From NCBI GenBank assembly GCA_018674175.1, contig JABHAT010000029.1, forward strand, positions 62,001-126,000: a stretch of DNA of 64,000 bases, in the 5' to 3' direction. The notes below the pieces were generated by a model. It searched no databases, was not told the DNA's origin, and was given only the letters and a program-made list of their open reading frames with translations. Source of the DNA: Gammaproteobacteria bacterium (GTDB lineage Bacteria; Pseudomonadota; Gammaproteobacteria; Poriferisulfidales; GCA-002705445). The first letter of the stretch is position 1, and each line of letters starts with the position of its first letter. Of this stretch, positions 17,824 through 19,879 are shown piece after piece. Both the position numbers and the translations under genes were made by a program.

Positions 17824-18720
17824 ATGTTTAATTTTAAAATTTACAGAGCATACCTAGAATCCTCAAAGCTTAGAGTTGTTGCTTTAATGATTTTCACATC
17901 TTTTATAGGAATGCTCTTAGCTAATCCTTTGTCTTTAAATTTTGAAGTTCTAATTTTAGGTAATTTAGGAATTGCTTTAATGTCGTTATCTGCTGGTTCA
18001 ATTAATCAATTATTAGATCAAAGAATAGATAAAATTATGCAGAGAACAAAAAAAAGACCATTAGTATCAGGAATACTGTCTACTAAAAATGTTATTATTT
18101 ATGCATCTATTATGGCAATTTTAGGTTTTTGTATTCTATATTTTCGAATTAATACACTAACAGCTTGGCTGACACTTGCCTCACTAGTAGGGTATGCTTT
18201 TATTTATACTTTATATTTAAAAAGGAGCACTCCTCAAAATATAGTTATTGGAGGTGCCGCTGGCGCTACACCACCACTACTTGGCTGGACTGCAATGACA
18301 GGACAAATTGATTTAATAGCCGTAGTATTATTTTTAATAATATTCACTTGGACTCCCCCACATTTTTGGGCGCTTGCTTTGTATAGAAAAGAAGAGTATT
18401 TCGCAGCAAAGATACCTATGCTTCCAGTGACTCATGGCGAGCAATATACTAGAGTGCATATAACTCTATATACTTTAATGTTAACAATAGTTAGTTTCTT
18501 GCCATTTATAATTAAATTTTCTAGTTCTTTTTATTTAGCAGGAGCGACGATTTTAAATTTAATATTCCTGTATTATGTAATAAAAATGCAACTAGCGAAA
18601 AATAATTTATTATCAAATAAAATATTTAATTACTCTATAGTTTATTTATCAGCACTGTTTGGTTTTTTAATAGCAGATAGGTATCTTGTATTACTTATAA
18701 ATATTAAAAGCTTTCTTTAA
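17824..18720 (+). CDS. ctaB: Protoheme IX farnesyltransferase
   Basis: AGSINQLLDQRIDKIMQRTKKRPL, GGAAGATPPLLGWTAM, TWTPPHFWALAL. Confidence 0.97.
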   Translation: MFNFKIYRAYLESSKLRVVALMIFTSFIGMLLANPLSLNFEVLILGNLGIALMSLSAGSINQLLDQRIDKIMQRTKKRPLVSGILSTKNVIIYASIMAILGFCILYFRINTLTAWLTLASLVGYAFIYTLYLKRSTPQNIVIGGAAGATPPLLGWTAMTGQIDLIAVVLFLIIFTWTPPHFWALALYRKEEYFAAKIPMLPVTHGEQYTRVHITLYTLMLTIVSFLPFIIKFSSSFYLAGATILNLIFLYYVIKMQLAKNNLLSNKIFNYSIVYLSALFGFLIADRYLVLLINIKSFL

Positions 18721-19540
18721 GTTTTAACATTGATTCGTTTTCAATCTGTCTAATTCTTTCTCTTGAAACGCCATATTTTTTTGATAAATCTTCTAGTGTT
18801 AATTTACTTGTAGAAAGCCATCTACTCTTAACAATATCTTTGCTTCTCTCATCTAGTTTATTAATAACTTCATATAGCTTTGTATTTAGTAAATTTTTTT
18901 CTTCATTTTCTAAAACTTGATCTGGCTCAAGCTCGCTACTAGTTAAAAATAATGATGGGGAAGCATTTTCATCATCATTATCTTCAATTGCTAAATCATG
19001 ATTATTCATTCTTTTTTCCATCTCTATAACATCCTTAAGAGGGACCCCAAGATCTTGAGCAATAGAAATAACTTCTTTATTACTTAAAGTAGATAATGTG
19101 CTTTTTTTAGATCTAAGATTGAAAAATAATTTTCTCTGACTTTTTGTAGTGGCAACCTTCACTATTTTCCAGTTTTTAATAACAAACTCATGAATCTCAG
19201 ATTTTATCCAATAAACTGCAAAAGTTATTAACTTTAAGTTCTTTTCTGGATCGTATTTTTTTACAGCCTTCATTAAGCCTATATTTCCTTCTTGAACTAA
19301 ATCATTTAAATTTAGCCCATACCCAGAATAGCTCTTAGCTATATAAATAACATACCTTAGATTATGCATAATCAACTTCTTGGCAGACTCTAGGTCATTT
19401 GTACTTTGTAAATTTCTACCTAGCGCAACTTCTTCTTCAGTTGTTAGTGGAGGTATCGACATAATATGACTAATGTAAGTATCCAAACTACCTGTTGGTG
19501 AAGGTAGTAATGTATTACTAAAATTTAATGTTTTTTCCAT
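18704..19540 (-). CDS. rpoH: RNA polymerase sigma-32 factor
   Basis: LGRNLQSTNDLESAKKLIMHNLRYVIYIAKSYSGYGLNLNDLVQEGNIGLMKAVKKYDPEKNLKLITFAVYWIKSEIHEF; C-terminal sigma4 HTH. Confidence 0.95.
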   Translation of the reverse strand: MEKTLNFSNTLLPSPTGSLDTYISHIMSIPPLTTEEEVALGRNLQSTNDLESAKKLIMHNLRYVIYIAKSYSGYGLNLNDLVQEGNIGLMKAVKKYDPEKNLKLITFAVYWIKSEIHEFVIKNWKIVKVATTKSQRKLFFNLRSKKSTLSTLSNKEVISIAQDLGVPLKDVIEMEKRMNNHDLAIEDNDDENASPSLFLTSSELEPDQVLENEEKNLLNTKLYEVINKLDERSKDIVKSRWLSTSKLTLEDLSKKYGVSRERIRQIENESMLKLKESF

Positions 19541-19561
19541 AGCTTTAATAACTCTTAATAA

Positions 19562-19588
19562 TTAGCACTCATTATACAAGAGTGCCAA
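19562..19588. promoter_or_regulatory. CIRCE-type operator (HrcA binding site) upstream of rpoH
   Basis: TTAGCACTC-ATTATACAA-GAGTGCCAA against consensus TTAGCACTC-N9-GAGTGCTAA: one mismatch, exact 9-nt spacer. Confidence 0.85.
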
Positions 19589-19598
19589 AAATTATCAA
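19571..19598 (-). promoter_or_regulatory. Sigma70-like promoter of rpoH
   Basis: Minus strand TTGATA-N16-TATAAT; the -10 lies in the CIRCE spacer. Confidence 0.65.
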
Positions 19599-19879
19599 TA
19601 ATAGGAATAAATACTTTTAAAAACAACAACTTATTTTACTTAAAAGATTAATTTATATAAAATTATTTTGTATTTTACTTATATTGCTAATATCAATAAT
19701 AATATGAAAATATAAAAAATCACTATCTACAAAAGATATACTTTAAAATAATTATTTTAATTAAATTATAAGATATTTATAAGAATTGCAAAGCTTTAAA
19801 ACTTATTTGCAAACTATATATATGTTATATTAGAAACCGTTTTAATATTATAAATAATTTTTTTTAAAAGGTAAGATTT

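Follow-up and report, generated by a model that had tools for sequence, protein, structure and literature searches.

In the classical HrcA/CIRCE regulon, that of Bacillus subtilis, the repressor targets the groESL and dnaK operons. The genome studied here has the operator, the repressor, the hrcA-grpE-dnaKJ gene order, and the groESL target in common with that regulon, but its CIRCE set includes the gene of the heat-shock sigma factor and its dnaK operon is without CIRCE. A parallel wiring is known from Alphaproteobacteria, with HrcA acting on groESL and RpoH kept separate. Both regulators are found there in one cell, as in our genome, whereas here CIRCE lies on rpoH itself, an arrangement that most non-gammaproteobacterial CIRCE genomes in our phylum sample do not share, having CIRCE elsewhere. 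A 2003 comparison by Permina and Gelfand reportedly treats exactly these regulons and may already list gammaproteobacterial rpoH cases, and Ueki and Lovley are said to have studied RpoH in Geobacter sulfurreducens in 2007.

For the same G. sulfurreducens, CIRCE before rpoH was reported in 2004 (PMC545781, Table 8); we searched open papers for CIRCE before rpoH in Gammaproteobacteria and found none, only this Geobacter report. As listed there, the likeness to our genome extends to the presence of hrcA, groESL under CIRCE, and a CIRCE, there perfect, ~50 nt ahead of the start codon of rpoH, but the Geobacter hrcA-grpE-dnaK-dnaJ operon also has a CIRCE, and that of our genome does not. With CIRCE before rpoH already known from G. 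sulfurreducens, the part of our results most likely to be new is the exchange of sigma factor under a fixed operator. The point of comparison for that exchange is E. coli rpoH P3, a target of RpoE (sigmaE), whose −35 box is GGAACTT (PMC8103513). A GGAACTT-type promoter likewise lies upstream of rpoH in most relatives outside the family of our genome. E. coli differs in having no hrcA (none was found there in the control of our hrcA search), and our family differs in lacking both the sigmaE promoter and rpoE.

The rpoH promoter and its operator

The window (the whole 64,000-nt stretch of DNA that was analysed) contains the following features, in window coordinates:

18704..19540, minus strand: rpoH, heat-shock sigma factor sigma32, 278 aa (TIGR02392, above the curated cut-off)
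19541..19564, minus strand: putative rpoH 5′ leader, ~24 nt, placed from the promoter position
19562..19588, no strand assigned: CIRCE operator, where HrcA is predicted to bind; arms TTAGCACTC (left) and GAGTGCCAA (right) around the spacer ATTATACAA
19571..19576, minus strand: TATAAT, the −10 element for rpoH, within the CIRCE spacer, invariant in 10/10 family members
19593..19598, minus strand: −35 element TTGATA, separated from the −10 by 16 nt, its TTG invariant in the family
19621..19627, minus strand: additional conserved element further upstream, (A)TTGNTT, 28 nt before the −35 TTG

The rpoH product scores 334.8 bits against TIGR02392 (cut-off 323.1). Compared with the CIRCE consensus TTAGCACTC-N9-GAGTGCTAA, the window site TTAGCACTC-ATTATACAA-GAGTGCCAA has one mismatch, in the right arm, and an exact 9-nt spacer. 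A preliminary description of this DNA had claimed such a site, 22–48 nt from the rpoH start codon, and a TTGATA-N16-TATAAT promoter on the rpoH strand with TATAAT in the CIRCE spacer; site, distance, and promoter were all recovered. TATAAT occupies the spacer positions closest to the second arm, and the promoter scores 11/12, ranking first among 11 promoter-like sites in 500 bp (shuffles: 4.5). In such AT-rich DNA a match of this kind is by itself weak evidence; what makes the promoter evidence strong is that 10/10 family members share TTG and TATAAT unchanged at fixed spacing. Operator and promoter overlap, with the −10 within the spacer, and this arrangement is conserved. With the transcription start placed 7 nt past the −10, the leader would take in only the outermost part of one operator arm. 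In the upstream element, TTG and TT are invariant across the aligned 10/10 family members; a −10 at a fitting distance from it was looked for and none was seen.

Conservation of the operator and its association with hrcA

The preliminary description staked its case on conservation of the repeat in close relatives and on the presence of hrcA in the genome. Footprinting found the repeat conserved in close and distant relatives alike. Among 12 sampled genomes of the window's family, rpoH was found in 10, all of which carry CIRCE before it; the site is perfect in 9, the window's being the one-base exception. Family spacers read T[TA]GTATAAT or TTCTATAAT, with TTG at a fixed place, and in the family alignment the arms, TATAAT, TTG, and ATTGNTT stand out while the surrounding DNA drifts. 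Two genus-mates (G007 and G009) have neither rpoH nor an rpoH CIRCE, with hrcA and the groES CIRCE both kept. A search for the neighbouring M16 peptidase gave no close match in either, and in G007 (98% complete, 8 contigs) genuine loss of the rpoH region is possible. Another genome, G011, has two rpoH copies with the same CIRCE and spacer (G011:C10 and G011:C14); this genome is 6% contaminated, and the duplication probably reflects mixed strains.

The window's genome does encode hrcA (TIGR00331 equivalog, 316.8 bits against a cut-off of 197.2), at the head of the order hrcA-grpE-dnaK-dnaJ. Its second CIRCE, the only other good one, lies before groES, 33 nt from the groES start, and a groES promoter (TTGACA plus a −10) sits just upstream of that operator, a layout differing from that of rpoH. 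Across relatives, 22/24 of the second CIRCE sites examined precede groES. No CIRCE was found before hrcA in the window's genome within 400 nt at ≤4 mismatches, and in the window's genus hrcA is without a preceding CIRCE; a CIRCE before hrcA was seen in six relatives. Where sites before groESL and dnaK had been anticipated, then, the groES site is there and one for the hrcA-grpE-dnaKJ operon is not. This distribution, with CIRCE only before groESL and rpoH, fits the earlier claim that two heat-shock strategies are wired in series. A genus-conserved CCCCCTAT stretch upstream of hrcA (L003/L280) was considered as a possible sigma32 −10 and discounted, because its reverse complement is probably the ribosome-binding site of the divergently oriented NAD kinase gene.

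We then compared 39 relatives, counting CIRCE at ≤2 mismatches before rpoH. Such a site is present in 21/22 genomes with hrcA and rpoH versus 2/13 with rpoH and without hrcA (Fisher P ~ 2e-6; ~0.003 when collapsed to families), so the operator is a conserved gammaproteobacterial feature. Named records with an rpoH CIRCE include Methylococcales, Cycloclasticus, Granulosicoccus, and others, while in Moraxella, Legionellaceae, and small gammaproteobacterial MAGs without it, hrcA is missing too. In the phylum sample, where position relative to rpoH was judged from coordinate comparison, a CIRCE precedes rpoH in all five gammaproteobacterial genomes that carry the operator anywhere (5/5), and in 8/9 CIRCE-bearing genomes of one non-gammaproteobacterial family (f35); other non-gammaproteobacterial CIRCE genomes have it elsewhere. 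The operator is kept across more than ten families. CIRCE on rpoH is the rule in sampled hrcA-bearing Gammaproteobacteria and hence not unusual; the host of the window is a small-genome marine bacterium that has this feature in common with most relatives retaining HrcA. One genome, G035 (locus L022; 97% complete), has a CIRCE with one mismatch before rpoH, and neither hrcA nor rpoE was found in it. It counts against the reading that HrcA gates rpoH, its site being a relic or the target of a diverged repressor.

Promoter types beneath the operator

In 30/46 rpoH loci outside the family, CIRCE is preceded by GAACT, which starts 15 or 16 nt upstream of it, and 16 nt past this motif stands TCTnA or a sequence near it, whose TC is the end of the left arm. 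The sequence matches a sigmaE-type promoter, GGAACTT-N16-TCTnA, lying under CIRCE in most relatives; one genome (G020) has the same putative promoter shifted upstream. Again beyond the family, AAT (at least 2/3 letters) follows the right arm at 39/43 rpoH sites versus 1/10 groES sites (P = 1.5e-6), and right arm plus AAT yields TGCTAAAAT, a possible extended −10.

Within the family, GGAACTT-N16-TCTnA is absent before rpoH in the window and at all other rpoH sites. An rpoE-type sigma factor above cut-off was found in none of the 12 family genomes; 11/12 have no match at all at E 0.001, and there is none in the window's genome (G000). Across 48 genomes, the sigmaE motif is present in 23/31 with rpoE versus 3/17 without (P = 0.0002), a link weakened by relatedness, the window's family being a single event (P = 0.09 with the family counted once, 0.003 leaving out three fragmentary MAGs). 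Eight rpoE-containing genomes are without the motif. We infer that the family lost sigmaE and that a sigma70 promoter replaced the sigmaE promoter under the retained operator, presumably in that order. The f35 genome G140 has TTGACT-N16-TATAAT, its −10 placed in the CIRCE spacer much like that of the window; it appears to be an independent instance of such a layout.

A broader history would make HrcA control of rpoH ancestral in hrcA-bearing Gammaproteobacteria, with CIRCE letters used twice: the left-arm end as TC of the sigmaE −10 TCTnA, and AAT together with the right arm as the extended −10. After loss of sigmaE, a new sigma70 −10 would have arisen in the same spacer, the operator outliving the sigma change. 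We regard the case for this history as evenly balanced. The loci would form a natural series in which the operator is constant and the promoter beneath it shifts from envelope-stress to housekeeping control, and such a series makes testable how heat-shock control is rebuilt on sigmaE loss in genome reduction.

Proposed control of rpoH and alternative readings

We consider it highly probable that HrcA gates rpoH via CIRCE over the −10, and that the sigmaE promoter was exchanged for a sigma70 promoter in the window's family. HrcA, held active by GroEL, would occupy CIRCE and mask the −10 of the sole evident promoter for rpoH, leaving housekeeping RNA polymerase unable to open it; since the −10 lies in the spacer, repressor and polymerase should be mutually exclusive at the site. 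GroE helps HrcA in other bacteria (PMC6032397). On heating, unfolded proteins would fill GroEL, HrcA would become inactive, and groESL and rpoH would be released together, whereupon sigma32 would switch on further heat-shock genes, probably including the CIRCE-less hrcA-grpE-dnaKJ operon. In most relatives, with the operator over a sigmaE promoter, rpoH would require both envelope-stress sigmaE and release of HrcA; in the window's family, with sigmaE gone and a sigma70 promoter under the kept operator, HrcA would be the main transcriptional control. Repressor and sigma factor, two textbook heat-shock strategies, would thus be joined in series in much of Gammaproteobacteria and not only placed side by side.

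Sigma32 of E. coli is governed chiefly by translation and turnover, and hrcA-less relatives retain rpoH without CIRCE. HrcA might therefore bind here and merely tune an rpoH control that is mainly post-transcriptional, with little effect on the heat response. We think this rather unlikely, given that operator and promoter letters are conserved in the family although its RpoH proteins are only 64–78% identical, and that the operator persists over the families noted above; such conservation implies selection.

Much less likely still is that the repeat acts chiefly in RNA, as a hairpin of the rpoH leader affecting message stability or translation, and not as a DNA operator. In a transcript, inverted repeats of such a length would pair, and the 5′ side of the E. 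coli rpoH messenger does control translation. We set this reading aside because the −10 sits in the spacer: a transcript starting from it would begin near the distal end of the second arm and could not contain both arms. The tracking of hrcA by the site also speaks against a hairpin role. That the CIRCE is a chance match in AT-rich DNA, as its one mismatch and the frequency of promoter-like hexamers nearby (11 in 500 bp) might suggest, has next to no probability, since only 0.03 sites per window are expected at ≤3 mismatches, the 1.08-Mb genome has two such sites against none for a backwards-pattern control, and conservation, the other 9 rpoH-bearing family members all having perfect sites, already refutes it.

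One further relative (G029, locus L034) carries a tandem pair of CIRCE sites, 5 nt apart, before one rpoH.
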